From positions 270,501-334,500 of the forward strand of contig SMSO01000032.1 of NCBI GenBank assembly GCA_004764695.1: 64,000 nt of DNA, in the 5' to 3' direction. The notes under the pieces are model-generated. The model was not told the DNA's origin, did not search any database, and worked only from the letters and a program-made list of their open reading frames with translations. Each line of letters begins with the position of its first letter. Positions within the stretch are counted from its first letter, which is position 1. Shown here piece by piece: positions 9,932-29,128 of this stretch. Position numbers and translations under genes: made by a program. Source of the stretch: Schizochytrium sp. TIO01. Lineage: Eukaryota; Sar; Bigyra; Thraustochytrida; Thraustochytriidae.

Positions 9932-12900
9932 TTATATAGATGAGGTGATAACCTCTTGACTGAAACAGATAAAGGTTGTTCCAGCCCCACATACAACTTG
10001 CTCAGCTGCCCCTGGAAGAATGTTCCGCAGCAGCGCAGGCTCAGGAATGATGATATCATCTTGCTCGTCAAATCCCCAAATAAGCACCTCATTACGCTCT
10101 GTTACTACGGCCGTATGATAGCGTCCACAATCAACACTAACAATGCGTTTATCGAGGTTTGGAACAAGTTGAGGCACAAGACTTGAAGCACTATGATCTG
10201 TACTTCGAAGGATGAGAGGGTTTTTATCTCCACGGTCGCTCCCCTCGGAGCGTTCGAATGGCTTTCGGAGTGGTGCTCGTTGCTGATCGAACTCAACAAT
10301 GCCGACTGATCCGGCACGGCGGTGCAGACGAGGTTTCTTTCTTATACTCGAATTTTGATCGCCTTGAACTCCATCTATGTTATTGGATGCGAGTCCATGC
10401 TGCTGCCCTTGCTGCTGCCCCTGCTGTTGTTCTTGTTGTTGCCATTGCTGAGTCGATGACGATGTAGTTTGCTTGCTCCCGCTTGTCTTACTGCTTCCCC
10501 GAGAAAAGCGACCACGCATGCGGAACGATGATGAGTCACGGTCTCGTGTTCCCGGCTTAGATGATAATAGATCATGCACCATTTGCAGCAGTGATCCCTC
10601 TGAAGCATCAGGATCATGCAGTCGCGGGCTCACACTACGATTCGTCGAAGACTCCTTAGCAGTAGATGAATGGGGATTGCTAGGCGATGATCCTTCGTGG
10701 ATCGTTGTAGCTAGAACATCACGGGAAAGCACATCTTTACCACAACCAAGTTGGCCAAATGCAGCACTTCCGCATGCTAAAAGAGTTCCGTCCCGCAAGA
10801 GAAAACATGAATGCGCAAAGCCTGCAGCCACAGAGGACACCATCCGCCCATACAGATTAACTGGTTTAGGTTCGTAGGCATCCGCGACTGTGCCCAAGCC
10901 AAGACGTCCCTCGCCTCCACAACCCCACACAAATGCAGTTCCAAGCTCCGAAACAGCCATGCTATGTGACCAACCAGCAGCAAGTGACTCAATACGCTCT
11001 TTACTGAGTCTTTCCACGCGGGCTGGTAAATACTGCTTATCAATACGACTTCCTAGCCCAAGTCGTCCACATGTACCACGACCCCAAGACCAAACCTCTT
11101 GTTCTGCAGTGAGGACCAGCGAATGACGTGCACCGCATGCCACTTCAACTACAACCTGCCGTCCATCGTTATCCGAAGAGTGACTCTGATCTGGAAACTC
11201 GACCCACATTGGTGACGTACATCGCTCTTCTCGAGCACCAACACCAACTTGTCCATCTCGATTATCACCCCACGCAAATAGCTGTCCCGCATAATTAACT
11301 GCAAGCATGTGGTTTTCGCCGCACGCAACACGACAGAAACGTTGTCGAGAAAGCAGTGAGTGATGCATTCCTGTGCTCACGCGGACTCGTCCACTTCGCC
11401 CAATCCAACAGTGAACACCTGGCGAAAATTTGCTTGCAGCAAACTGTTGGATGTTTTCGAGCAAATCTGGTTCCTGCCAGGTTACCGCAGGTCGTCGACG
11501 CTCTCCTACACTACCTTGCAAAGCAAGCATAACTTCGCGCGAAGAGTTTTGAGCATCAACGACTAAATAGAGCTGTGAGAAGTCGCCATCAGCTCGATAT
11601 GCGCGACTTATTGGAGGACCCGCAGGCTGGAGGCTCTCACAAACACGTTCAGCTACAGTAGCAGCCAGATCTCGGCCATGACTTGTAATCCATAACGCAG
11701 CTACCTCCACATTAGCCAGGTTATATCCAAGTGAAGTTGTATTTACATTCATCGTATGGAATGCCCTCATAAAGTAAATTTGGGCCATCAGACCTTCCAG
11801 ATCCTCAGCCCATACCATTACATAAATAAGTTGATCTAGCAGATCGTCTGTGGTGAGCTGAAAGGCTGATACATCAACAAAATGGCGTCGGATATTGTCT
11901 TCTACAGCAGCATTGATATAAGACACCACTGTCTCAAGGCACAAAAGTTTCTCTAGAGGTGTAATCCTAGATGATAAGGTACGAAGGTGCTCAATGGCAG
12001 CATTCTGTGGACATTGATATTCTGGCCGCATGCCAAGGTCCTGCTGGTTGAGTCCTCTCGAGCGAAGCACAGCAGCCTCATTAGATAGCTTGGCGTCTTC
12101 ATTCACAAAAAGCTTGCGAAGCTGTGCCATGGATTGATCATGAAGTTGTGCCATCACATAACCCTCCAAAGCTTGCTCAACTTGAAGCATATGTCGGCGC
12201 ACCTGTGTCTGCAAGCTCTGGCGCTCGCGTTTACTCGTGATTAGTTGAACCGCACCTTTATTGCGGTGCAAAGGGGCAAACGAGCTGGATGTAAAGATTA
12301 GAGAAGTCGAGGAAGTGCGTATCCAGCCTTTCACCAGACGTTGCACATTCTCCAGGAATTGCGCATCTACTTGTTCATTATCCCAAGCTTCTAACACCGC
12401 AGCTACAACCTCATCTAACTCTTCAAAAATAATTTCATGCTCAGGGTATGACCGCAATACCCCTAGGTACTTGCCAATCTGGTGTAGGGTCATGCCAGAG
12501 AGGGTACATGGTGATGCGCAACCTCCACGCAACGGCCGGTCAATATGCATAATTTTCAAGGAAATCTTAATCTCTTCGCCTGTTGGTGCTTTCTGCGTTG
12601 TTTCAACAGACTCTGAGTAAAGAACATACACCATTCGTTCTCGCCATGCAGGTCGAACATGGGCCCAATGATCTCCAATACTACCTGCATCTTGGCTACC
12701 AACGAAGACCTGGTTCCCCTTGATGATTACTTGCCGTCCATCCACAGTAACAAAGTCTCCTCTTAATTCTTCAGCAGCTACAAGCAAATGAGATCGCACG
12801 TCCGATATGCTCGGGCGTGTTCGCAAAGAGAGCTCTTGAGGAATACATAGCAAAACAGTAGTCCCTTCCTCCAGAACTAGGTCTTCATCATCATCCAGCA

Positions 12901-13327
12901 AAGAAGCAATGTGAGCTTCATCCCGCCTTGTGCCATGTCCTACATGGCTCTGCATCCGATTTGGATGAAATGTGCCTTGTGAATCGGAAAAATTTGATTC
13001 CACTCCAGACAGTGGCTCTGTTATCTCGTTCCCTGAAGATGAACTCGGTGCTGCTGTCTTTGGTTCGGTAGTTGACAATTTTGTTGATGCTAGTCTGGGG
13101 CTATCTTTAGGTTGACTTTGCAGGGAAAGTATGTTTCCTTGGTTTTGACGATCATGAAAGCTCAAATTCCACGCCGCAGGATCATTTTCGTGAAGATCAG
13201 CTGCATTGTGTTTTTGAACCCGGCGTCTGCGATTTCTCTCACGAGCATACTCGCGCAGAAGCTCTCCTTTATACTGTTCAAAAGCCGCGAAGACAGAGTT
13301 TAGCTCTAGCCGCTCCGTTTCGATCAT
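9932..13327 (-). CDS. RCC1-repeat (beta-propeller) protein with large unknown N-terminal region
   Basis: This is a 1,131-residue intronless ORF. The first in-frame ATG is at 13327 and an in-frame TAA lies upstream at 13381-13379; a TTG nine codons earlier is not a credible eukaryotic start. Five RCC1-type repeats are visible: FAWGDNRDGQVGVG (about residue 680), VWSWGRGTCGRLGLGS (745), FVWGCGGEGRLGLGT (800), LLACGSAAFGQLGCG (850) and a last blade EVLIWGF near 1085. Between the fourth and fifth is a low-complexity Ser/Gln-rich insertion of about 210 residues (QQEQQQGQQQGQQ). Residues 1-640 start with a basic helix and contain no domain I recognise. RCC1 propellers act as guanine-exchange factors or protein-binding platforms; nothing here shows which. 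It is divergent from the coiled-coil gene at 14650 and shares a 1.3 kb spacer with it. Confidence 0.88.
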   Translation of the reverse strand: MIETERLELNSVFAAFEQYKGELLREYARERNRRRRVQKHNAADLHENDPAAWNLSFHDRQNQGNILSLQSQPKDSPRLASTKLSTTEPKTAAPSSSSGNEITEPLSGVESNFSDSQGTFHPNRMQSHVGHGTRRDEAHIASLLDDDEDLVLEEGTTVLLCIPQELSLRTRPSISDVRSHLLVAAEELRGDFVTVDGRQVIIKGNQVFVGSQDAGSIGDHWAHVRPAWRERMVYVLYSESVETTQKAPTGEEIKISLKIMHIDRPLRGGCASPCTLSGMTLHQIGKYLGVLRSYPEHEIIFEELDEVVAAVLEAWDNEQVDAQFLENVQRLVKGWIRTSSTSLIFTSSSFAPLHRNKGAVQLITSKRERQSLQTQVRRHMLQVEQALEGYVMAQLHDQSMAQLRKLFVNEDAKLSNEAAVLRSRGLNQQDLGMRPEYQCPQNAAIEHLRTLSSRITPLEKLLCLETVVSYINAAVEDNIRRHFVDVSAFQLTTDDLLDQLIYVMVWAEDLEGLMAQIYFMRAFHTMNVNTTSLGYNLANVEVAALWITSHGRDLAATVAERVCESLQPAGPPISRAYRADGDFSQLYLVVDAQNSSREVMLALQGSVGERRRPAVTWQEPDLLENIQQFAASKFSPGVHCWIGRSGRVRVSTGMHHSLLSRQRFCRVACGENHMLAVNYAGQLFAWGDNRDGQVGVGAREERCTSPMWVEFPDQSHSSDNDGRQVVVEVACGARHSLVLTAEQEVWSWGRGTCGRLGLGSRIDKQYLPARVERLSKERIESLAAGWSHSMAVSELGTAFVWGCGGEGRLGLGTVADAYEPKPVNLYGRMVSSVAAGFAHSCFLLRDGTLLACGSAAFGQLGCGKDVLSRDVLATTIHEGSSPSNPHSSTAKESSTNRSVSPRLHDPDASEGSLLQMVHDLLSSKPGTRDRDSSSFRMRGRFSRGSSKTSGSKQTTSSSTQQWQQQEQQQGQQQGQQHGLASNNIDGVQGDQNSSIRKKPRLHRRAGSVGIVEFDQQRAPLRKPFERSEGSDRGDKNPLILRSTDHSASSLVPQLVPNLDKRIVSVDCGRYHTAVVTERNEVLIWGFDEQDDIIIPEPALLRNILPGAAEQVVCGAGTTFICFSQEVITSSI

Positions 13328-14649
13328 CTTCTTCACTTCCAGCGAAGATAACAATACAACCCTATGAAGGGCCGCAAATTATAGTGCTCGCCCTCTGTAG
13401 TTCTGGATCACCAGATATGTGTTCAAAAGATCCACTTTTGTAGAACTGCTTTCCAAGTGGGCCTAAGAAGAGGCCCAAGGTCACCGAGCAGACGTCATTG
13501 AGGATTCTGTTTATTATCCATTATGTTACTAATCAGTACCTACCTTCTATCGCCTCCGTAGATACTGTTAAGTACTAATGGACAAATCTACCGAGATGGA
13601 ACGATTTCGTACTTTGGCGTTTTCGTTTGGATGATGAACTAGACATGTATTGAGGACCCTGTGCGATGGCTTTACAAAAACATATGTTTGTCTGACATTT
13701 GAGAAGCTGTACGAAGTCAGCAAAAAGTAGAAGATATATAAGAAAGAAAGGTTAGTCATGTTGGTTTCTCACACAAAGATCCGAAATATCGTGTTTACTT
13801 GACGAATACCTGATTGATGGATGTACGAATACCTCCCCTCCCCCCCTCTTTGTTAAAAGAATCAAAGACAAGAATCAACCTATGTTGAATGCAGCTACGA
13901 ATGCAACTTTATATTGATTGTTTCAAGCCATCAAATCTCGGCGAGATGGGGAATCTTAGGTTAATAAACACTTAGCTTCGTACGTGGGACTGATATAGTT
14001 TGCTATATTTCCTTAGATTGAATTTCTACATTTTTCTTATTGAGAAAAGCATTCCGAACCAGCATGAAGCAGTAGAAACAACCGAGATCCCATGTCATTG
14101 CCAGAAAACTCATACATGCTATATTTTAAATTATGTATATAGATCATTTTTCCGAATGAACCCTCTAGCTCAACTGGAGTGCAGCAAACATTCCTGGAAA
14201 AATTTCTAATGTTTTATGAGCTTATTTGCTTTGCCAATGCTTCATTCATTTCTTACAGTAAAGTAAAGGATAAAAGATAAAGGGGTTATGAGCCTGCTAC
14301 CATAAATTTATCTTCTTTTTCATATTGATCCGTTGGGTTCACCGTCGATAGACATACTTTACAGCATAAAGGAGAACAATATTGCCTAGCAAATAGAATT
14401 TAGCACCGTTCTAAGTATGCTAAGCTCCCTTTATTCCAAGGTTTCAAATGTTATCACACCCTGAGCAACTTTAGATCCATTGCATAGGCACAAAGTAATA
14501 TATGTGTATATGTAGTAGCGTTAATTTCTTGATGTGTGCGATCGTTCTATACTTTTGTAGGACACGGCAAGTCTAACTCACTTGGTGGACGGGGCAATCG
14601 TCGATGGCAGAATTGCGTTGATCAATTTGGTGTAGCTTTACTGTCCACT
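13328..14649. other. Divergent intergenic region
   Basis: This separates the starts of the RCC1 gene (minus) and the acidic coiled-coil gene (plus) and should carry both promoters. It is AT-rich with a short C-run near 13845. The plus-strand frame of the downstream gene is open upstream to a GTG at 14536, but no in-frame ATG occurs before 14650. No other gene is visible. Confidence 0.6.
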
Positions 14650-16611
14650 ATGTCAGAAAGATCAAGTGAGCAAGCCAGCGATCCACATGCGAAGGATGGG
14701 GTAAACGAGAACAATGACGAGATTGAAAATCACATTCCTGAAAATACTCCTGCGTCAGAAAACAAGTCAGAGGACGCAACAAACACCAGCGCGAGGGCGG
14801 AAGAAGAGCAAGCACAATTTGAAAGCGATAGACAGGTTCAAAGTAACGTTGATCTTAAAGAAGAGGAAAGTGACAACTCTGGGCAAGATCCGCCAGTACA
14901 GGAAACATCCAATGCTGAGACATTAAGCCGCAACGTTCACAACGACGGCGAAAGTAAAGCTAACGCAGACGCCGAAGCCTTTTTAAAGGAGTCTAACATT
15001 GATGTCAAAGAGAGAACACAAGAGGGTGACATTGCCGGTACCGACACGTCCAATAAAGAGGAAGTGAGTGCAAAGAAGGCTCCAATAGAAGAACAGCAAG
15101 AAGCTACTGGTCCGGAAGCATCCCAAGAAACTCATTCCAGAAACGATACTGAGCAAGTACAAAATGCTGTGGAGGAGAGCAAATCTGCTACAGCAGGAGA
15201 TGACTTGAACGAACCTGAAGATATTAACAGCAGCAACAACGAATCAAAATTCTCGGATCGAGATGAGGAAGAAGCAAAGTCTGATATTAGAAACGAGGAA
15301 GAATCAGTCAAACCTGTCGAATCAAAAACTGTAGATCAAGATGAAGATAAGTATGTTGATGAAGATGAATCTAAAATCGAGAGCGCCCGTAAGAGCTCGC
15401 GAGAAGCTGAAGACAATGGCACAGAGGAAGAGGCTGTAAAAGATGAAGCAGAAGAATCAAAGTATGAATCTTCTCCCAGGTCACGTTTCTCACGCGAGGA
15501 AGGTCTAAGTAGCTATCGGAGCCGAGAAGAAACCAAAGAGATCGAAGCAAGCATGGAGGAGGAATATGATGATGCAGACTTTGAAGGAGAATCTAAAGTT
15601 ATCGAAGATGAATCAAAAAGTGTAGAAATCCCAATTCTTAAGAGACCAAACGATATCGAGATACGGGACTCTTCTGAGAGCCATAAGAAATCGACTTCAC
15701 GTAAAGATAGCAATACAACAGCCAAAACGAGTATCAAGCCTTCCCCGCGCAGCACGGGGTCTTCGTCATCGGGGCCTAAAATTCCAAAAAGGACAAGTCA
15801 AAGCGGAGCTCCCAAACCAGCAAAATCATCTGTTTCATCGAGCATGAATAGTTCTAGATCTCGCGAGCCATCAACTCCCATGAGCAATGGACTACTTGCA
15901 ACTGACCGGTCTTCCGATCGGCCATATGACGAAAGGAATATGTCCGAGATCCAGCTAGAACTTCGCAAAGAGAAGAAATTAAGACGCTCACTAGAAGATG
16001 ACATCAAGCTTCTAAAGAATCGATTACAACATTTAAAGAGCGAGCACGACTCGACCCAACGGAAAATTGCGGAAACCAGAACAAGAGTTCAGCAGATTCG
16101 AGAGCAGAGAAGTGACCGCATGGAACGGTCTCAGTTTCTTCAAGATCGAAAAGAAAGCCATGCCTCGCTTGTAGTTCAGGATACTGAGAAGAACAACCGA
16201 TTGCGAGATGAAGCACGAAAAAAGCGAGAACATGCTTTTAGGCAGCAGCTTGTACAAAAGAAAACTCTCACGCAGCATTATCAAGAACAGAAACATCGCA
16301 TGCTTGCAGAGAAAAAGAAGCTCGAGGCAGAATGGCAGCGAGAGAAAGAAGAAAAACGAAAGGAACGGCTACAACAGGTACAGAGGAAACGTGAGGAGCA
16401 ACAACGCCGTGAAGCTGAGTTTCAACGGCAGCGACAAGTAGAAAAGGCCCGGCAACTTGCCCGCGAGGCGAAGCGAGTTCGTGAAAAGGAGGAAGAGGTT
16501 CGTCAATTGGAAGAATTAGAAAGAAAGCTTATTGAAGAATTACGTGCAGCACACCGAGAGCAGCAAGGCGCATATCAGAGCTTAGAGGAGTCCCTTACTT
16601 TGCCCACTTAA
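14650..16611 (+). CDS. Acidic, disordered protein with C-terminal coiled coil
   Basis: The first in-frame ATG is at 14650 (MSERSSEQ), giving 653 residues. The N-terminal two thirds are dominated by Glu, Asp, Ser, Asn and Lys with no predicted fold. A Ser/Pro/Lys-rich linker follows. The last ~210 residues form a continuous charged coiled coil (heptad-like KEKKLRRSLEDDIKLLKNRL, later long runs of Arg/Glu/Gln). Such an architecture is common in cytoskeletal or centrosomal proteins, but no family is recognised, so the role is unknown. The stop codon at 16609-16611 lies inside the end of the capping-enzyme gene on the other strand: the two coding sequences overlap by 17 bp tail to tail. Confidence 0.85.
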   Translation: MSERSSEQASDPHAKDGVNENNDEIENHIPENTPASENKSEDATNTSARAEEEQAQFESDRQVQSNVDLKEEESDNSGQDPPVQETSNAETLSRNVHNDGESKANADAEAFLKESNIDVKERTQEGDIAGTDTSNKEEVSAKKAPIEEQQEATGPEASQETHSRNDTEQVQNAVEESKSATAGDDLNEPEDINSSNNESKFSDRDEEEAKSDIRNEEESVKPVESKTVDQDEDKYVDEDESKIESARKSSREAEDNGTEEEAVKDEAEESKYESSPRSRFSREEGLSSYRSREETKEIEASMEEEYDDADFEGESKVIEDESKSVEIPILKRPNDIEIRDSSESHKKSTSRKDSNTTAKTSIKPSPRSTGSSSSGPKIPKRTSQSGAPKPAKSSVSSSMNSSRSREPSTPMSNGLLATDRSSDRPYDERNMSEIQLELRKEKKLRRSLEDDIKLLKNRLQHLKSEHDSTQRKIAETRTRVQQIREQRSDRMERSQFLQDRKESHASLVVQDTEKNNRLRDEARKKREHAFRQQLVQKKTLTQHYQEQKHRMLAEKKKLEAEWQREKEEKRKERLQQVQRKREEQQRREAEFQRQRQVEKARQLAREAKRVREKEEEVRQLEELERKLIEELRAAHREQQGAYQSLEESLTLPT

Positions 16612-19600
16612 AAACCATAACTTTATATAGTTGAATTGCTTCCCATTCTGCTTGTGACAGAGGTGGACGACCTTGTGTTTTGAGGCCTACAACAGCCATG
16701 GAGTGCAGCATAGATTCATATTCATGGCACTTTGAGGCAACGAAGGAGGAGAGATTCTGCGATACGATCATTTCTAGCCCATGTTTAGCGGCCATTGCCT
16801 TGATGCGTGTCTCTGGGACGATAAACTCTTCACAGTCTTGTACAGCGTCCCCGAGTGAGAAAGAGTACGCGCTACCAAATGCAAGGTCTGCTGCGTCCTC
16901 TGGAAGCTCCTCACGGAACTTTACCGAGCATACATCATTGCTAAAGCTTGGACGACGGGCATGTAAGATGTCGGCATCCGTGGTAGACATGAGCAACAGC
17001 GGCTCAAAGTCTTGTTCACCGTCTCCATGTTTGCGAAGAGCTTGTTCACAAATTGTAAAAAATCGTTCACAGCGTGCCTCATCACTGCACAGATAATGAA
17101 AGGCAAACTGTACACTAATCACATCAAACGAGCGACCCTTGATTGCTTCGTTCTCCAGCAATGCCAAGTCTGAAATGTCAGATTCTACAAACACGTGCGT
17201 TTGGCCTTGGGCACGGGAACGCGCTTCCACAAGAGCAACGCTGGCAATATCTACGCCAACGTAAGATTCAATTTGTGACGCACTGGCTCGCCACTTGTTT
17301 AGATCGCCACCACGCCCGCAAGCCAAATCAAGAATGCTCATAGGGCGGCTCTGTTTAGCTTGAGAACGCTCTGCGCCACGGATAGCTTCCCGAATTGCTT
17401 TAAATGACATAGGTGGATGCTTCGAAGGTTTCAACTCACCCGGAATCGCAGGCAAAGTATCCACCTTGCTCTGACCCACATCAAGAGGCGTAAGTTTGCC
17501 CATGCAGCATTCATGAATAAGCACGGCCTTCGACCAGTTATTCAGCTTGCGCAAATTCTCGATACCGGCATCAAGTTGACCCTTACCCTTGCTGTTACGC
17601 TCAGTCTGGCGCTCATTGTAGTGAGCTGCGACAGCATCAGAGCCTTCCAGCATGCCTGAAGGATGTTGGTGCACAAGATCTTTGAGGCGTAAGATCAGAC
17701 TATCTACGGATACATTTTCGGCCACAGACTCAAGAACAGTCCAGCCGGTACGAAGTGAGTTCGGCCGAACCTTATCTACACGAGCCCGCTGACCGCGCCA
17801 GCACCCAGACTGTGTATCAAATCTACACTCAACGATGCTGCTTGCCGGCCCGCGGCCACCACGACTCTTAGTATTTTTGCTGCATGCTTGTCTCAGGGTG
17901 TCGTCCATCTCTGCCTCAGCAAGCTCCACATCAGCCATGCCTGAGCGTCCATTCACGGTCACATGCTCCATGAGAAAAATGGGAACTCGGGGTTTGTTCA
18001 GGTCACGCGCAAAAACACGAAAATCTACGGTCAAGTCATGGACAGGTTTGTATTTCACAACCGTGTATTCATAATAATTCTTTCCTGCAGGGGTGAATAC
18101 AAGGCCATCGCACTGGATTGCACCAATGTGGTCATACGTATATTCCTTGGCGGCGGAGCGCAAAGTTTGGACAGAGTCCACATCAACGAATTTCTTGTCA
18201 ACGAGATAAAAGCTGCCAATCTGAGCCAGATCGCCACGAAATTCTTGCCATGCCGTCATTCGTTTACGCAAGTCTGGGACAGCACCAACATCTTCCTCCC
18301 CGATACGAACTGCATCAAAAACGAGATACCCGTTTTGCGCAACAACTTCGCCATCGAGAAGAAGCCAATCTTTATCCCCGAGATCCTCTTTTGGCAATGT
18401 TCCAACAAACTGGAAAGTCCACGAGCGATCCACGAGGAAACATTCGCGCCCAGGGCCCGGAAAGCCAATCAACATGTGTCGCACTCCATCAGACTTTTCG
18501 CACACAACCCAGCGTTTATGCTCACGCCCAATATCATTGAGCTTCGAGAGGCGGAAAGGCTCGGCGCGTGGGCCAGGAATGTCTCGGTGGTTCATATAAA
18601 ACTTCACATTACGGTCGGGGCAGTTCCGCTTCATCACCTCACTTGAGGTGAAGAGAGTAGCCACACGGTCTCGTAAATACAGCTGCTGAATCGTGTCCAA
18701 ACTTGGCAATCTCTCCATAGAGCCTCGGCGTGCTTGTCCAGCATACTGGTCGAGAGCGACGCAGAATGCGCCCTTGGGATCAAGAATGGAGTCACTGTTG
18801 TCATTCGTATCAAAATCCGGAACAAGAACACACGTGCTCATCGGGTTACGCTCAAACTTCTCAGCATGGTTATCCAAGAGGAGCGTGTTCGAGGCATCAA
18901 AGCGGTCCCCAAACTTTTCCCAAATGTTGCCCAAGTCTTTTAAAAACAAGGGTTTTTCCACGGACACTACAGAAGTACGAGGCCACTCGTTTGAGGAGTT
19001 CTCTTGGTCCCACTGGAACAGAACACGATCTGGGTACGCCTGAAAGAGCTCCATCTCCATGTTCTTGCGTTTGCCGCAGGACCATACGCCCACATGAAAT
19101 CGCTCCATGCAAAAGTGAATAAATTCATCGCAGAAGGGCCGGCGAGCAAAGCTTGCACGGGGACCACCACGCCCGCGTTCTTTGAAGTTCGGGCGGTTCA
19201 CAAGGACACCATTCAGGTCCAAGATGATAAGCGGTGCATCGGACTCTGGCTCTCGCGAAAGATTCCAGCGCAACACAGGAAGGCCATTTGGGAGAACCTT
19301 TGTCACAGTCACAGTTTTGAGCGATTGTACGGCTCCGGAACCTCTCCAGAGCTCAATGTTCTCCACAAGACCATAGGTGTTTGCTTTGATCTCCACAAGA
19401 GTACCCCCTTGGCCCACTTCCACAACCTTGACATTCGCGAACTCTTGGCCAACCTCAATGCCGGCTTGAGATTGCTGCTGAGCGAAATCTCTCTGCACAA
19501 AACTCACAAAACCAGCCTGTGAGGAAGCTGTCGATGAAGGAGATGCTCCACGACGCGAGTTGTTCCCGCGATCAAAGCGTGAGTTTCCACCACCACCACC

Positions 19601-19945
19601 ATTGTTGTTGTTGCCATTGTTGTTATTGTTGCCGCCATTGTTGCCAACTGTCTGCCAGCTTCCATTGCCGCCAAAGTTGCCACGATCGAAGCGCGAATTG
19701 CCACGATTATTGCCAAAATTGCCATTGTTGTTGTTGCTGCTGCTGCTACTGCTGCTGTTGTTATTGTTGTTGTTGTTGTTGCTGCTGCTGCTATTATTGT
19801 TGTTATTGTTGCTGTTGCTGCCGCCGCTGTTGTTGTTGTTGTTATTGTTGTGGCGTCCACGGCTGCCTCCACCGCGTCCATTTCTGCCTCCACCGCGTCC
19901 GGCGCCGCCGGCGCCGCCGTCGTTGTCGCGTCTGCGCCAGTCCAT
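16595..19945 (-). CDS. Fused mRNA-capping enzyme: FCP/SCP-like HAD domain + guanylyltransferase + cap N7-methyltransferase
   Basis: This is a 1,116-residue intronless ORF with ATG at 19945. Residues 1-150 are RG-rich then poly-Asn. A FCP1/SCP (NLI-interacting-factor-like) HAD domain follows: motif LDLNGVLV with Asp243, a VGVWSCGKRKN segment, and LLLDNHAEKF with Asp358. The second HAD Asp is replaced (D-L-N instead of DxD) and the late DD is DN, so phosphatase activity is doubtful. The nucleotidyltransferase domain has the covalent-GMP lysine motif KSDG (Lys484), a DGEVV motif, VKYKP and the OB-fold motif RVDKVRPN, as in GTP:RNA guanylyltransferases. The C-terminus is a cap (guanine-N7) methyltransferase with the SAM motif LDLACGRGGDLNKW (about 870-884) and FAFHYLCSDEA. 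The protein should transfer and methylate the cap on RNA polymerase II transcripts in the nucleus. No RNA triphosphatase domain is visible in it. Confidence 0.93.
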   Translation of the reverse strand: MDWRRRDNDGGAGGAGRGGGRNGRGGGSRGRHNNNNNNNSGGSNSNNNNNNSSSSNNNNNNNNSSSSSSSNNNNGNFGNNRGNSRFDRGNFGGNGSWQTVGNNGGNNNNNGNNNNGGGGGNSRFDRGNNSRRGASPSSTASSQAGFVSFVQRDFAQQQSQAGIEVGQEFANVKVVEVGQGGTLVEIKANTYGLVENIELWRGSGAVQSLKTVTVTKVLPNGLPVLRWNLSREPESDAPLIILDLNGVLVNRPNFKERGRGGPRASFARRPFCDEFIHFCMERFHVGVWSCGKRKNMEMELFQAYPDRVLFQWDQENSSNEWPRTSVVSVEKPLFLKDLGNIWEKFGDRFDASNTLLLDNHAEKFERNPMSTCVLVPDFDTNDNSDSILDPKGAFCVALDQYAGQARRGSMERLPSLDTIQQLYLRDRVATLFTSSEVMKRNCPDRNVKFYMNHRDIPGPRAEPFRLSKLNDIGREHKRWVVCEKSDGVRHMLIGFPGPGRECFLVDRSWTFQFVGTLPKEDLGDKDWLLLDGEVVAQNGYLVFDAVRIGEEDVGAVPDLRKRMTAWQEFRGDLAQIGSFYLVDKKFVDVDSVQTLRSAAKEYTYDHIGAIQCDGLVFTPAGKNYYEYTVVKYKPVHDLTVDFRVFARDLNKPRVPIFLMEHVTVNGRSGMADVELAEAEMDDTLRQACSKNTKSRGGRGPASSIVECRFDTQSGCWRGQRARVDKVRPNSLRTGWTVLESVAENVSVDSLILRLKDLVHQHPSGMLEGSDAVAAHYNERQTERNSKGKGQLDAGIENLRKLNNWSKAVLIHECCMGKLTPLDVGQSKVDTLPAIPGELKPSKHPPMSFKAIREAIRGAERSQAKQSRPMSILDLACGRGGDLNKWRASASQIESYVGVDIASVALVEARSRAQGQTHVFVESDISDLALLENEAIKGRSFDVISVQFAFHYLCSDEARCERFFTICEQALRKHGDGEQDFEPLLLMSTTDADILHARRPSFSNDVCSVKFREELPEDAADLAFGSAYSFSLGDAVQDCEEFIVPETRIKAMAAKHGLEMIVSQNLSSFVASKCHEYESMLHSMAVVGLKTQGRPPLSQAEWEAIQLYKVMVFKWAK
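19560..19945 (-). repeat. Poly-Asn / RG-rich low-complexity coding tract in the capping enzyme
   Basis: The 5' end of the capping-enzyme ORF encodes RGGG-type repeats followed by long Asn runs broken by Ser and Gly. Asn is encoded by a mix of AAC and AAT, so the tract is not a single pure trinucleotide repeat. The antisense strand gives artefactual Leu/Cys/His-rich open frames. Confidence 0.85.
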
Positions 19946-21130: not shown

Positions 21131-23809
21131 TTAGTTTACCGAGTTCTTACGTCGGCGATGGTCGTCGTCCTGGTCTCGGCGAAGAAAAACCTGCCAGAGA
21201 ATATATTGCTCGTTAAGCGGACTTTGAATATCTTGGACTTTACAGAGAGCTCGCTTTCGATGTGAAAGCTTCATCTCTGGTGTGGGTTTATAAATAGCAA
21301 GAATAGCGCCCTCGCGCATCGTACGCACGTCAAGATCAGAACAACTTGCGGGTGTGGCGAAAACGAGATGCGCATCTGCAAAAGCTCGCATTGCTGAAGA
21401 AGGGGCCTGAAAGCGAATATCAGGAATTGTCTGCGTGGGAATATTTGCCACCTCTTCGTTGTTTTCATCATCTACGTCTTCAAAACTCGGAACGAAAAGA
21501 TTTTCCATATCAGCCTCAAAACTTTCTACAGCTCGACCACCTTCTTGGCGAAGCTCTGCGTTTTCTTCATAGCCTATCGCACTTGCGAAGGACTGTGAAA
21601 GGCACGCAGCGAGAATTGCTTGACCTTTACCGGCTTGTAAGTCGCACAGGATCTTATCTGTGAAGGTCAACCGATGCATTAACTGCAAAGTACTTAGTAA
21701 AAGCTCTACATGCATAAATTTCTCGCAAACTATGCCCTCTGGTATGGGTTTTGCAGCAGGATTGGTTTCCCCAAATTCAGTCCAGCGAAACCCCCGCTGA
21801 GTTGACATAACCTCATAAAAACGCAACGTTCGCTTCCCACCCATCGCCCAAAGTTTTTCCCAAGTATTTTTTGGAAGCAAAGGCAGCAAGCGTCTCACAA
21901 TGTGCATATGATCAACAGCAGCAGCTATTTGGACTGCTTTATGAAGAGTTTTTTCATCTGCAAAACCAAGCGTACTTTTCATCGTGGATAGTGCACCTCG
22001 TTTCGTAGCAATTAAAAAAGCTTCCCTTTTTACATCATTTGACAAAGAAGGAAGTAGCCTTCCTAAGAGACCCAACACGTCTTCCCGGTCACGCGATGCA
22101 ACAAGCAGAAAGGCCTTTCGATGAACTTCGTGATTGACGAGCTCAGACAGCAGCTTGACAATACGACTGTCTGGGTGGCTCATACTGACTGCAAGCAGGA
22201 TACCTTGAATGAGTTGCTTATCTGTACAGTGGGGAATCGCGCGGTAAAGCATAGCCAGATCGTAGTTTCTAATTGATGTACAAAGAGCTTCAAGCGTCTT
22301 CGGCGTCCCGATTTCTGTCTTTTGATCTGGCGTAGCAGCTTTCATACCCTTCGCTCGATTCTGTGGATCCCAGCCACTTGCACAAAGCTGTTCGTATCCA
22401 ACTACAAAGGAACAGCCATGGACGTTGCAATAGTCAGCCAGGATTCTTGCTCGTGGGAAAGGATCATACAAGTAGCGATTTTCAGATAGCTTTTCCATGC
22501 ACAATTCCATGTAAATATCAAGAAAATCTGCGATCCTGGTCTTCGAAATTGACTCGATAGGATCCATATGCACGTGTTCGTATGCATGTGTACGCATCAT
22601 ATCAAGGAATAATGGCCTCAAAATTTGCTGTGTAAACTTTTCTCGGCTAGGTCTCCATTGGGCACCAGAGAGCGCCCGGAATTTGTTTGCGGCACATTCA
22701 AGCATTGTTATTTGAGTTAGGACCTCATTGAGCTGGGTGCGTTGAGCAGCCCTACGCGTAGATTCCAAAGCATCAGTTGCATCCAGAACTCGGTCATCAT
22801 TAATTTCCTCACTGGTCTCATCAGGATAGCCATCCATAAAATCGTCGTCATTATCATCCTCATCATCGGGGTTCTCAACATTGTATTTGTTCCCTGAAAC
22901 GGAACCGCGATGTTGTTGGTCAGGATTTTCATCATCATTTTCATCATCTGTTTCGTTATTGTTGATTCTTTTGGGCTTCTCCTCCGCTTGCTGCTGGCTG
23001 CTGTCTTCATCTCCTTTCTGATGGTCGTCTCGGTCTACCTCCGCGTCATCTTGGCCAACCGTGGGTTTATCTTTGAAGTATGATTTGTGGTTTGCTGCAT
23101 TGACGACATGATCTGACAATTCTGCCTGAGAGAACTCTGAAAAGGGATAGTGCTGATTAAGCTTTCTTGATGGACCTTTTGTTGCAGCCTTTGCTTGCCA
23201 TGCTGGACACTTTGGCGCATCAGGGTCGCCCACTGAAAAGCGCCGATGAACTCGGTCATCGTTTTCAGTAATAGCTGAGCTTACAAACCGTTCTCGTCGC
23301 TTTTTGTTTATAAATTGATAAGCCCGAGCTGGTTCTGCCCGTCCTTCGTTGCGCTGCTGCTGCTGCTGCTGAAATTGGCGCCATGCCTGTTCAGCATCAA
23401 AGAGTGTCATAGCTACTGCAGAGGTTCTGTGTGAGAGATTACCTTTAAGTGGGGCGAATGGAACTACATATGACTGCCTTCGTGCGTCGTTAAGCATTGA
23501 TCGCATGCGCATTTGTCCAGGGAAATGAACTGAATCGACCGTATTTTCCACTGATTCTATCAATCGCTGGCCATCTTCGGGTATTTGCAAGCCCTCCGCC
23601 GGTGCCTTGTGTTCCAGGTCATCAATCCCTTTCACAAAGGTTTCCTTTTGGTCCTCTTTAAAGTCCAAAAGCTGATGAGCTCTAACATGCGTATTTAGCG
23701 CTAATGTTTGAAGTTGCAGAGCAGCCTTATCTACTACTGGCGGTACAGATACATGATTAGCAACCGTGTTGACTACCGAGCTCGTAACCGAAGATGCTGC
23801 GCTGCCCAT
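21131..23809 (-). CDS. Acidic helical-repeat protein with possible N-myristoylation signal
   Basis: The first in-frame ATG is at 23809, giving 892 residues beginning MGSAASSV; an upstream TTG at 23863 is not a credible start. Gly2 with small residues at 3-5 and Ser6 fits the N-myristoyltransferase consensus, so membrane attachment is possible. Residues ~150-160 hold a poly-Gln run, and residues ~230-340 a strongly acidic, Asn-rich linker. From about residue 430 to 700 the sequence is alpha-helical with repeat-like units (for example AFLLVASRDREDVLGLLGRL and AFLIATKRGALSTM) resembling degenerate ankyrin or HEAT-type hairpins. The C-terminus is acidic and ends in a basic tail (DDDHRRRKN). I do not recognise the family. 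It is divergent from the TPR gene. Confidence 0.8.
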   Translation of the reverse strand: MGSAASSVTSSVVNTVANHVSVPPVVDKAALQLQTLALNTHVRAHQLLDFKEDQKETFVKGIDDLEHKAPAEGLQIPEDGQRLIESVENTVDSVHFPGQMRMRSMLNDARRQSYVVPFAPLKGNLSHRTSAVAMTLFDAEQAWRQFQQQQQQRNEGRAEPARAYQFINKKRRERFVSSAITENDDRVHRRFSVGDPDAPKCPAWQAKAATKGPSRKLNQHYPFSEFSQAELSDHVVNAANHKSYFKDKPTVGQDDAEVDRDDHQKGDEDSSQQQAEEKPKRINNNETDDENDDENPDQQHRGSVSGNKYNVENPDDEDDNDDDFMDGYPDETSEEINDDRVLDATDALESTRRAAQRTQLNEVLTQITMLECAANKFRALSGAQWRPSREKFTQQILRPLFLDMMRTHAYEHVHMDPIESISKTRIADFLDIYMELCMEKLSENRYLYDPFPRARILADYCNVHGCSFVVGYEQLCASGWDPQNRAKGMKAATPDQKTEIGTPKTLEALCTSIRNYDLAMLYRAIPHCTDKQLIQGILLAVSMSHPDSRIVKLLSELVNHEVHRKAFLLVASRDREDVLGLLGRLLPSLSNDVKREAFLIATKRGALSTMKSTLGFADEKTLHKAVQIAAAVDHMHIVRRLLPLLPKNTWEKLWAMGGKRTLRFYEVMSTQRGFRWTEFGETNPAAKPIPEGIVCEKFMHVELLLSTLQLMHRLTFTDKILCDLQAGKGQAILAACLSQSFASAIGYEENAELRQEGGRAVESFEADMENLFVPSFEDVDDENNEEVANIPTQTIPDIRFQAPSSAMRAFADAHLVFATPASCSDLDVRTMREGAILAIYKPTPEMKLSHRKRALCKVQDIQSPLNEQYILWQVFLRRDQDDDHRRRKNSVN

Positions 23810-24910
23810 TGACCAGTCGTTAGCCAACCCCTTCTCCAGCGCTCGGCCCGCCCCGTCTGTCAATTGGAGCCACTACAGCCTTTCTATTTTTGGTATCACA
23901 ACGAAGAATAAACGTTGCTGCCAGCCGCCCGCACCAGCACTAGTGGCTCTTACTGTAGCTCTCAATGTTGCATGTGTGGCTATTATTTCAATTGATAATT
24001 TCCTTTGTCCCCTGCGCCTAGACTTCACTTTGCACCCTGGCTCGGGGTACACTCCCCAAAGTTCACGGGACCTCGTGCATGTTCCCATTTGAGGTTTCGA
24101 CTTGCGCGAGAACTTGCTTGTGGCTCGTGAACACTCTAAGTGAGAACGTGGGCACCGTCTAGAACCTTCCCAAGTGAGCCTCCAGGACCAGATCATATCT
24201 TCAGTCCCCCAAGAGGCTGCGGGAGTCGAACGCCTTTACACCAACTAGCAAACAACTAAAAGCAGGCTTCATTTCGCAAGTGCGTCTATTCGTTCCCGGA
24301 CTTTTCCTGGTGCTCCCCGGGCGTCACCTTTTTTCCCACTTTTACTCCCACGCAGATCACTGTCACGCATGCTCCAGACACATCACTCCCGTCGTCACGA
24401 TCACATCTCCACTTGCTAGTTTCGCGCTCCTGCTCCACGTAGGGATTTATGCAATCTCAACGGATCTCTGACCTGCCTATGAGAATTGGGACACGTGCGA
24501 GACAATATGAAAGACCCGGTGGGGGGGGGGGGTATCATGGGACTAAATGAGTATCAACGACAGCAACCCCATTGTATGTCCCGGGAGTTTGGAGCGGCCT
24601 CTTGAACACAGTGTCCAGAAGGCCCCCCAAGTAAGCCAATCTCGCCTCACGCCACAGAGCCTAGGCGTTCCTAGGGCGCTGGTAGCGAGACTACGGAGCA
24701 CCACGTGTACTGGCGAAGCATTGACCTTCGCTGGGCCGCCGATGGTGGCTCGTTTTGGGGAATTTCAGGAGATAGCAGGCATTTGTGGAGGTTAAGAAGT
24801 GAAAAGAATGAGAGCGTGGTGTGGAGGCACGAGCAAGCACTTGGGCTCAGCGTAGTGTGCTTGCACGATTCTTTGTTTGATTGTTTGTTTGAGTGGTATT
24901 TGATGCATAT
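23810..24910. other. Divergent intergenic region with a 12-G run
   Basis: This lies between two divergent starts and should contain both promoters. A run of 12 G lies at 24521-24532. An ATG-led frame at 24547 runs 80 codons and reaches a good-looking splice donor (GAG/GTTAAG at 24791), so it could be a 5' exon of the downstream gene. With the nearest acceptor (24916) the frames do not match; with the acceptor at 24941 they do. The evidence is too weak to include it in the gene. Confidence 0.45.
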
Positions 24911-26556
24911 ATGCAGGCCTTCGGTAGCTCCTTGGATTCAGTGGAGCTGCGGAAGACCGAATCTCAGAAACTTGAAGTAGAGCAGATCCTCAACTTGGGT
25001 TGGTGCATTCAAAAGATGGACAAGTGGCTCTTTGGAACTATGTACGGCCAGCCGCTCGATGCTGGTGAAGATGTACTCTTCGACGCCGAGGAGAAACTTC
25101 AAGAAATTGAAGGTCCGGTAATGGAGATCAAAGTGAGAGGCTGCCGATCGGAACAGACAGAAAAGCTGCAAAGAAAAATGGAGGACATGAACGTAGGTTC
25201 TTCGTATAAATCGAAGCAGTCGTTGCACAATGCTAGAAAGGAGATGCAAAGCAGCAGTTCATATAGGCGAATACCAGGAAAGATGCCAGCTCAGGATCTC
25301 CAGGTTCATACCAATTGCTTGGAGCTTGAGGTTCTGCTTCGTAACGAACGTATTCGTGGTGCGTGTCTGGGGAAACTGGTTGACCAGGAGCGGCGACGCT
25401 TGAACGAACTTCATGAAGCCACCCGAGCAGTTCAGCAATTACTTCCACTGCAGTCGTCACCGAGGTCGCAAGCTTCTCCCCAGGTTTCTTGCAAGATGAT
25501 TGTGGTTTCCATACACACCGACTCAGTAACCAAAATTATACAAGCAACGGACATGCAACAAAGAAGAACTTTAAAGGACACGGAATGCAGGAATCGGGTC
25601 ACTTCTTAGACATAAACGATCTCGCACAGTGCCTTCAGGAAGAGGAAGCTTCTCATGATAGGCGCTTTGCGCACCTCTCAAACTTAAGTTATAGCTCTGA
25701 AGGATGCAAATGGAGCTCTCAATCAGAATGGTCACATAGTACGGGATCGTTTGGAGCTAACAACCGTCACAAAGCTTGCCGAGCAGCCTTAAACAAAGCT
25801 CTTGGTCGAATCAAAGCAGGGGATTTTGCAGGTGCAAAGGCTTTTTTGACTCAATCAACCTGGCTAAGCCGTCGCGAAGGTATTATTGTTGTTGAAGGCC
25901 GTGCATGTGCTAATCTTGCAGCTCTCATTGCTTTGGAAGGGGATTGCCAAGAAGCACACAGATTATCCCAACGCGCGCTACACATTTTTCGAAGCACCGG
26001 GGAGAGATCTCTTGAGTGCAAGACACTGACAAACAGTATCTTCTATTGTATAGCATTGAAACGATATGACGAGGCTATGGGTATGGCTCTCAGGAAGAGT
26101 ATGATTTCAGAAGACGAGAATGAACGCAATTTAGGGAAGGCATGGATTCGTCGCTTGCAGGATTTTGTATGCTCTGCATTCGACTACGAACACATACCAC
26201 AGCCTGTTGACCACGTTCGCCTAAAACATCTCACTCGCCACCAAAGCTCTCTTGCAGACGATGTGGTTCACCATCGCACCCCTTGTTTGGAAACTGTGCA
26301 ACAGGATTATATGCTATTGTTTCCTGAATGGCACATCCAATACACTTCTCCTTCTCAACAGCAAGACACACGTCTGCTTCATTCTGAAGGCGCTGTAAAT
26401 TCGTTTGCTGAGCTATCGAGCCGCTCTGCACCTCGAAGGAATCAACGCGCTCGTTCCCAAAGTGATAACCATTTGGACAAGCTATATCGGTCAGCACCTG
26501 GTCTTCTCCCAAATGGTACAAAGCGTAATTTTACAGAGAAGCTCATTGTTGTCTGA
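24911..26556 (+). CDS. TPR-like protein, two exons (24911-25483, 25591-26556)
   Basis: Two protein-like frames overlap at 25489-25609 in different phases. Removing a 107-bp intron at 25484-25590 (CAG/GTTTCT...AATGCAG/GAA) joins them in phase 0 and gives about 512 residues. The start is the first in-frame ATG at 24911; a 5' exon upstream cannot be excluded. Exon 1 is charged and helical with no recognised domain. Exon 2 contains two or three tetratricopeptide-like helical pairs (ALGRIKAGDFAGAKAFLTQS, NLAALIALEGDCQEAHRLSQ, YCIALKRYDEAMGMALRKSM), which usually mediate protein-protein contacts. The C-terminal ~150 residues look disordered. The donor is not a perfect consensus, so a frameshift is the alternative explanation. 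Confidence 0.65.
25484..25590 (+). other. Predicted intron in the TPR gene
   Basis: GT at 25484 and AG at 25589-25590 flank 107 bp; both junctions are phase 0, so the two open frames join without a partial codon. The first frame stays open to 25609 and the second is open from before 25489, so other splice choices within the overlap are possible. Confidence 0.5.
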
Positions 26557-27390: not shown

Positions 27391-29128
27391 ATGGCGCCTG
27401 CCATGAAGGTAACCTTGAAGTGGGAGGAGGGTTCCGACGAGGCCTCCCACTCTGTTATCAAGCTCACTCTCCCGCGCAAATGGAAGGAGGGCCCTACGCT
27501 TCAGCTTAAGGAGACCTTTGTCGACCAGTACAACAAAAAACACCCTGATTCTCCATTGGATCTCTCTCAGACGCATCTTCTCAACACCCGCGGCCAGGCG
27601 CTCTCTGACGCCGACATTGTCTTCCGCGTCCTCGAGCACGGCGAGCACGTTCGCGTCAAGCCCGGCCCGGCTCCTTCACGGCTTTTGGTGCCGAACGAGC
27701 CTAAGGCAGAATCATCCAAGACATCGAAGCCCTCACAAATCCCGTCAGACTCCGCTTCAGATTCACACTCTGCGGCACAGCGGGCGTCGCAGGTTCCTAC
27801 ACCTGTTGAGGCTAGTGGCTCTAACTTGGTAGGGAGCAAGGAAGCGCTTGACAAAGCGCGGAAGATTGACTTTGATTACTCCAAGTGGGACCGGCTGGAT
27901 TTGAGTGATGACGATGGAGATGACTGTCACCCGAACATTGACAAGGAGAGCTGGAAGCGACTGATGGCGCAAAAGCGGGCGGATCGTAGAGCGAAGGAGG
28001 ACGAGAAGATTTCTGCATTTCAGTCGAAGATCGATAAATACTCAAAGAAGGTAGCAGAAATTCAGGCCAAAATTGACAAGGCGCAGGCGGATGACGAAGA
28101 TGTGGCGCAGTGGATTGTGGACCGCGACGATGCAAAGGACTCGCTGGAGAAGTACCAGGCGAAGCTCAACCACTTTCTTGGTACAAGAAAACTCACGGCA
28201 GACGACCTTTGCAACATCAAGGACGACCGCACGTCAGTAGCAAAACACGCAGAAATGACACCGCTGCAGACCGGACTTCCGGCACCGAAGCCGGCAGTTA
28301 CGACATCTGCGGAGCCTAAACCCAACCATGCGCCCAGAGTCGCCTCCTGACGAGAGTGGGGAGTACGATGCTTATATTAAATTACATCGCGCCAAGGTCG
28401 ATAAGTTTGCCGACCTCCGCTCAGATGAGGCCTCGGAGCACTTTCTCCTGGAGACACCTGAGATTTTGCACAAGCACGCAGAAGGCTACCTTCTCTTACG
28501 CACACTTGACACATGCATGCGCCACCTTGGTGAGGAGGAAGACCGCGGTGGCTTGCCGGAAAAATTGAAGAAGGCATATTCTGAGGAGGAGATTGCCATT
28601 GCGCGCCAACACATGATCATTCAGTTTGTCTTAGCCCTGGCCGAAGGCAAGAACCGCGATCCTCGTGACTTTGTTCGTGCATTTTTCGTCAAGGCAGGCA
28701 AGAACTCAACACAGCGTGTTGACGGGTTTGAGCAAGATCTTGAGGCGTTTGTCCAGCGTATTCGCAACCGTGCCAAGGAGAAGCGTGAGAAGGGCGAGGA
28801 ATCTCCTTTGGCCTACCACAACCGAGACAATATTGTTGAGGTAGATGATGAGGAGTATGAGCTGGCACCTGTGGGACCTGGTGGCTTGGATCCCAACGAG
28901 GTTCTTGGTACCTTGCCTCGTGACATGCAGGAAGCCTTCATCTCACAGAATACTGATGCGCTCCGTGCTGCGCTGCAAAAACTATCCAATGAGGAAGCAC
29001 AGTATCACATGCAGCGCTGTGTTGATTCTGGACTGTGGAACCCCGGTCCTGATGAGGTTGTGGATGAAGATGAAGAGGATGATGACGAAGCTGAGGAGGA
29101 GGAGGAGTCACAAGAGGCGGCCAAGTAA
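27391..29128 (+). CDS. CDC37: Hsp90 co-chaperone Cdc37, frame-broken at 28345-28351, with N-terminal extension
   Basis: Two overlapping frames encode one Cdc37. Frame 1 (27391-28350, 319 codons) starts MAPAMKVTL, has ~85 residues that look like a beta-grasp domain, a Ser-rich linker, then the canonical Cdc37 N-terminus near residue 160: FDYSKWDRLDLSDDD, with the CK2-type Ser and the following HPNID. Frame 2 (to 29128) carries the Hsp90-binding middle domain (HMIIQFVLALAEGKN, DFVRAFFVKAG) and the C-terminal hallmark PGGLDPNEV...YHMQRCVDSGLW. The kinase-specific co-chaperone normally begins with MVDYSKWD, so the N-terminal extension is unusual. Frame 1 ends TCC TGA C, and a +1 shift there leads directly into frame 2 (578 residues). 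Alternatively, a 157-bp intron (28181-28337, GTACAAG...CGCCCAG) also restores the frame (526 residues). An assembly error is the third possibility. Confidence 0.9.
28345..28351 (+). other. Candidate +1 frameshift site TCC TGA C in CDC37
   Basis: Frame 1 of CDC37 ends with TCC followed by TGA and C. Reading TCC, skipping one T and continuing with GAC enters the frame that encodes the rest of Cdc37. TCC-TGA is the core of the antizyme +1 shift site. No stimulatory pseudoknot was assessed. Confidence 0.35.

Follow-up and report, generated by a model that had tools for sequence, protein, structure and literature searches.

The domains of vaccinia D1 and of K. lactis pGKL2 ORF3 follow the order triphosphatase, guanylyltransferase, methyltransferase. 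All three activities are reported for pGKL2 ORF3 in an excerpted account (PMC6211774). In metazoan and plant capping enzymes of the RNGTT type, a phosphatase fold lies N-terminal to the guanylyltransferase and the N7-methyltransferase is unfused. Trypanosomes, as outlined in excerpts of PMC11417388, own two capping sets: the nuclear TbCgm1 is a guanylyltransferase-methyltransferase, and the cytoplasmic TbCe1, a kinase-guanylyltransferase, has TbCmt1 as its partner. The arrangement of capping enzymes is regarded, in an excerpt of PMC2904801, as a marker of eukaryote phylogeny. Here we analyse a 64,000-nucleotide stretch of the thraustochytrid Schizochytrium sp. TIO01 (assembly GCA_004764695.1, contig SMSO01000032.1, positions 270,501 to 334,500; hereafter the window). 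A single open reading frame (ORF) with an ATG start on its reverse strand (16595..19945) encodes a protein of 1116 amino acids, in which a HAD domain is followed by a cap guanylyltransferase and a cap guanine-N7 methyltransferase. This is a new architecture built from known parts. We favour, with modest confidence, a reading of this protein as a second capping enzyme whose HAD domain is probably a non-hydrolytic or slow phospho-ligand module.

The protein resembles vaccinia D1 and pGKL2 ORF3 in the succession of a phosphatase-like domain, a guanylyltransferase and a methyltransferase, but its front domain is a HAD, whereas theirs is a TTM/metal-dependent triphosphatase. With the RNGTT type it shares a phosphatase fold N-terminal to the guanylyltransferase, although the two folds are unrelated and only here is the methyltransferase fused. 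TbCgm1 of Trypanosoma brucei is similar in carrying guanylyltransferase and N7-methyltransferase in one chain, with the triphosphatase apart, in a two-set organism; no N-terminal HAD is mentioned for it in the excerpts of PMC11417388. Like TbCe1 and TbCmt1, the window gene represents a second set beside a (here probable) nuclear one, but TbCe1 has RNA kinase activity where a HAD fold is found here, and TbCmt1 is a separate protein. The sequence-only reading of this DNA knew of no described fusion of this kind. No HAD, NIF or FCP1 domain fused to capping domains is described in the open-licence literature that we searched, stramenopiles and thraustochytrids included (general protein databases were not searched, and may already contain an annotation of the protein), nor in the excerpts of a Plasmodium phosphatome survey. 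The same literature yielded no paper linking UBLCP1 with pseudophosphatases.

The fusion is confirmed at the genome level by the single open frame, its domains and motifs, and the codon signal within the frame. Four Pfam domains were detected (NIF, mRNA_cap_enzyme, mRNA_cap_C and mRNA_G-N7_MeTrfase), every one above its curated cut-off, which bears out the earlier claim that HAD, guanylyltransferase and N7-methyltransferase share one ORF. By codon usage, with seven further ORFs of this genome as the training set, the true frame outscores each of the other five in all seven segments of the gene that were compared, linkers included. Two genes misread as one were also considered, an explanation that the unbroken 1116-codon frame and the codon signal appear to rule out.

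The guanylyltransferase catalytic domain (residues 475-625, 18071..18523; all features of this gene are on the reverse strand) matches PF01331 (E 2.3e-9), and alignment to solved capping enzymes places its EKSDG motif at 18485-18499. The C-terminal OB domain (residues 640-751, 17693..18028; PF03919, E 4.3e-10) holds RARVDK at 17771-17788, located by the same alignment. All six guanylyltransferase motifs are kept (KSDG, LLLDGEVV, YLVFDAV, CDGLVF, VVKYKP..TVDF and RARVDK), which we take to be motifs I, III, IIIa, IV, V and VI. In PDB searches, solved capping guanylyltransferases were recovered at E 1.7e-7 with the whole protein and at E 1.4e-9 with the guanylyltransferase part alone. The methyltransferase (residues 797-1116, 16598..17557) matches PF03291 over residues 862-1113 (E 1.3e-45; 156.3 bits against a cut-off of 26.6) and PDB 8q69 (E 2.5e-17). 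Its S-adenosylmethionine motif LDLACGRGGD is at 17303-17332 and the lead-in LRKLNNWSK at 17528-17554. As the motifs are intact, one chain is predicted both to transfer GMP to 5'-diphosphate RNA and to methylate the cap at N7. The protein has no match to the TTM triphosphatase family (PF02940) up to E 1. A decayed or unexpressed paralogue might be suspected from the divergence of the guanylyltransferase and from the fact that an orthologue could not be shown, but this is very improbable for a frame of 1116 codons without a stop, with both sets of motifs kept and codon bias in frame throughout.

Six-frame searches of the 64-Mb genome detected at least two cap guanylyltransferases and at least two N7-methyltransferases, one of each being the window gene. 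The organism therefore has another guanylyltransferase and another N7-methyltransferase, which makes the window protein a probable second capping enzyme and does not support the earlier reading of it as the organism's capping enzyme. The other guanylyltransferase is a stand-alone protein of 428 amino acids (L007:2922-4208 on C33) that is far closer to solved capping enzymes (PDB E 3.7e-32) than the window enzyme. The other N7-methyltransferase is the C-terminal part of a 902-amino-acid protein (L009:1820-4528; G000:C6, about 1811 kb). The N-terminal part of L009 matches PF02940 weakly over residues 64-179 (E 0.0014; 18.8 bits against a cut-off of 24), and EIEAR (residues 54-58) and EVELE, seen by eye and both outside that stretch, are presumably TTM motifs. 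A PDB sequence search with this part returned nothing credible. We consider it a probable TTM RNA triphosphatase, in line with the earlier expectation that the triphosphatase is supplied by a separate gene. The signature HCTHGxNRTG of Cys-phosphatase triphosphatases has no exact place in the genome read as unspliced codons, from which spliced or altered forms would escape. L009 thus carries the probable TTM triphosphatase and the N7-methyltransferase in one protein with no guanylyltransferase between them, an arrangement that is, to our knowledge, unusual.

The window and C33 guanylyltransferases share 33% identity, and the window and C6 methyltransferases 32%. These values point to old divergence rather than to a recent copy. 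The window methyltransferase is as far from the C6 protein as from fragments of 8q69 and 1ri1 (31, 31 and 33%). Judged from these alignments, the second capping set is old or of outside origin.

The front domain (residues 239-387, 18785..19231) matches the NIF family (PF03031, E 1.5e-13). To model residues 140-440 we used an alignment that included seven further NIF proteins of this genome; the HAD part of the model is fairly confident and the first 92 residues are not. The modelled domain has a HAD fold, as had been proposed, and matches solved structures of UBLCP1, SCP1, Tim50, CTDNEP1 and Fcp1, with SCP1 (Z 18.3) ranked above UBLCP1 (16.2) and Fcp1 (14.7). By sequence, the closest HAD in the PDB is UBLCP1 (3shq, E 0.0029), and in NCBIfam the HAD fragment matches two models, HAD_IIID1 (TIGR02245, E 4.1e-7) more closely than dullard/SCP (E 0.0056). 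The signal is therefore mixed: the domain is nearer UBLCP1 by sequence and scores best with SCP1 by fold. Its TIGR02245 score of 29.7 bits lies far under the UBLCP1 family cut-off of 192.25, and it differs from UBLCP1 in its motif I (DLN for DxD) and in its fusion to capping domains. Pfam detected no ubiquitin-like domain in residues 140-238 up to E 10, a region where the predicted local distance difference test score (pLDDT) of the model is mostly below 50. Fab light chains were also among the PDB sequence matches of the HAD part and are taken as chance.

In HAD enzymes the second aspartate of motif I is the general acid and is generally needed for catalysis. Motif I of the window protein is DLNGV (residues 243-247, 19205..19219), in which the nucleophile is retained and the second aspartate is replaced by asparagine; the DxDx(T/V) of active FCP/SCP phosphatases of the RNA polymerase II C-terminal domain (CTD) is thus absent. 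We aligned the domain with L015, a true SCP homologue of this genome (202 bits against a cut-off of 139; PDB SCP E about 1e-67). The nucleophile aspartate, the motif II serine, the motif III lysine and the motif IV aspartate are all kept, whereas the SCP insertion is shortened or unmatched and the motif II tyrosine is not kept. In SCP, the insertion and this tyrosine help to hold the CTD peptide. In our reading, the window domain is a module with a phosphate pocket whose catalysis is impaired or altered, and not an FCP/SCP phosphatase. Of the FCP/SCP-type HAD proposed from sequence, the NIF/HAD assignment holds and the subtype is doubtful, given the motif I, the unmatched insertion and the closer sequence match to UBLCP1.

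Motif I is readable in nine of the ten NIF domains of the genome: five have DxD, one has DFE and three have DxN (DLNGV in the window, DLNGL in L004/L021 and DINNV in L005/L024). As DxN is common to three of the nine, it appears to be a trait of the lineage. Two of these domains occur in stand-alone NIF/HAD proteins (L004:1396-2835, reverse strand; L005:1036-2130, forward strand) with no Pfam family besides NIF over cut-off, which argues against DxN having arisen as an adaptation to RNA capping. For L004, the dullard model (5.2e-6) is a marginally better match than HAD_IIID1 (4.9e-5), which counts against a UBLCP1 subtype. In a tree of eight of the ten NIF places (L019 and L023, the latter with motif I outside the frame read, were omitted), the window HAD groups with L020, L004 and L005, apart from the SCP-type L015-L017 and L018, which is Tim50-like by eye (97/95 support, long branches); the three DxN rows group with a support of only 83/89. 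L020 is a true UBLCP1 with a ubiquitin-like domain (TIGR02245 score 230.5); L019, which has BRCT, is a true FCP1. These comparisons place the window HAD in a divergent group, apart from the orthodox SCP, FCP1 and UBLCP1 proteins that the genome encodes elsewhere.

In another reading, the HAD would function as an RNA 5'-triphosphatase or 5'-end phosphatase of an undescribed kind, which would make the protein a three-step capping enzyme. The domain sits N-terminal to the guanylyltransferase-methyltransferase like the triphosphatase of vaccinia D1, P-type ATPases are HADs that cleave a phosphoanhydride without an aspartate at this position, and the weaker fold matches include the HAD phosphatase of T4 polynucleotide kinase (E 4.2e-4). 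We nevertheless consider this improbable: two DxN paralogues stand alone, a probable TTM triphosphatase is already present in the genome, and no candidate replacement for the general base was found. Slightly further still from likely is its most specific form, in which the HAD would be a third type of capping 5'-end phosphatase beside the TTM and Cys types; here Asp243 would attack the gamma-phosphate of pppRNA without an aspartate as general acid, as in P-type ATPases, and the three-step enzyme would have evolved independently of the viral ones.

In the preferred reading of a second capping enzyme with a phospho-ligand module, the guanylyltransferase would take GMP from GTP onto Lys484 and pass it to 5'-diphosphate RNA, and the methyltransferase on the same polypeptide would then yield m7GpppRNA. 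The HAD domain would bind a phosphoprotein or a phosphorylated RNA end and so recruit the enzyme to its substrate, and the N-terminus, rich in asparagine and arginine-glycine (RG) pairs, may assist. Another source would have to supply the 5'-diphosphate, and in the nucleus the TTM-like domain encoded by the C6 gene is the probable one. For the setting, we give nuclear capping of a sub-class of transcripts and cytoplasmic recapping equal weight.

In a nuclear, CTD-coupled version, the HAD would bind the phosphorylated CTD of RPB1 and the enzyme would cap a sub-class of RNA polymerase II transcripts. This coupling was the function suggested by the sequence-only reading, and it now appears unlikely. 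The alignment with L015 retains neither the SCP insertion nor the motif II tyrosine, motif I has its asparagine, the domain is nearer by sequence to UBLCP1, known mainly as a proteasome phosphatase, separate SCP, FCP1 and UBLCP1 proteins exist, and a more orthodox capping set is present for RNA polymerase II. What speaks for it is the top fold score with SCP1 and an RPB1 (L034; G000:C13, 5070500-5076000) with an SP-rich degenerate CTD. This CTD consists of YSPSSPA-type repeats, often with an extra alanine, and contains no exact YSPTSP.

The other setting, cytoplasmic recapping, would have m7G caps restored on decapped mRNA in one chain, as by TbCe1 with TbCmt1, and we consider it doubtful to the same degree. 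Residues 1-140 (19526..19945) are of low complexity (48 N, 33 G, 22 S and 15 R), with seven RG pairs within residues 1-160, and resemble the RNA-granule type of sequence. The coexistence of two sets, of which the other is probably nuclear, and the trypanosome precedent of TbCe1 and TbCmt1, as given in PMC11417388, point the same way. A kinase is required, however, to recap RNA that ends in a 5'-monophosphate, and Pfam found none in the window protein (the genome was not searched for one); moreover, the trypanosome guanylyltransferase-methyltransferase fusion, TbCgm1, is the nuclear enzyme in the excerpts of PMC11417388.

Several points weigh against a second capping enzyme with a largely non-catalytic HAD. 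A HAD fold sited where viral enzymes have their triphosphatase could be catalytic, and the need for the second aspartate is drawn from general HAD enzymology. The TTM assignment of L009 is under the Pfam cut-off, a genome-wide PF02940 search returned nothing (its control was likewise silent), and the single-sequence structure model of L009 reaches a pLDDT of only 32. Finally, no orthologue was recovered from the viral and prokaryotic contig collections. Five scans of the viral collection (with the whole protein, the guanylyltransferase pair, the methyltransferase pair, four methyltransferases and four HADs) gave no confirmed relative, nor did the prokaryotic collection with the whole protein as query; the viral scans used strict patterns, so absence is not implied.

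A stand-alone guanylyltransferase, a probable TTM-methyltransferase and a HAD-guanylyltransferase-methyltransferase lie outside the usual two-scheme picture of capping. This genome would join that of trypanosomes as an independent example of a doubled capping apparatus, in which the purpose of the second set is testable by removal of the gene. Were the HAD to act on RNA ends or on the CTD, a capping enzyme would here be fed or recruited in a new way.

Between the low-complexity N-terminus and the HAD, residues 162-232 (19250..19462) may form an S1/OB-like segment. Compared by hhalign with eight S1 domains of the same genome, it gives the best score of 15 windows of the protein (16.4, matched by one of 200 shuffles), with a probability of only 3% over 32 columns. 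Pfam shows no S1 match there up to E 10, and we regard the identity as suggestive only.

As viral enzymes fuse capping domains, an origin of the gene from a giant virus or provirus was considered. Of the 31 window ORFs of at least 150 amino acids, 10 were scanned with Pfam; this origin was set aside as less likely, since the neighbours among them that exceed a family cut-off appear to be cellular genes (ankyrin, RCC1-VPS9, Cdc37, ABC transporter, aspartoacylase-like). The ORFs at 14536-16611 and 21131-23863 had no Pfam match over cut-off, and that at 25489-26556 had weak matches only. The first of these, on the forward strand, encodes a charged sequence of 691 amino acids, rich in Ser, Glu and Lys, for which Pfam gives no family up to E 1; the 3' end of this ORF overlaps that of the capping gene by 17 bases on opposite strands. 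At 9932-13354 on the reverse strand, RCC1 repeats and a VPS9 domain share one frame, an Alsin-like combination. Cdc37 (27391-29128, forward strand) extends over two overlapping frames, the first with the N-terminal domain and the second with the middle and C-terminal domains, perhaps with an intron between them.

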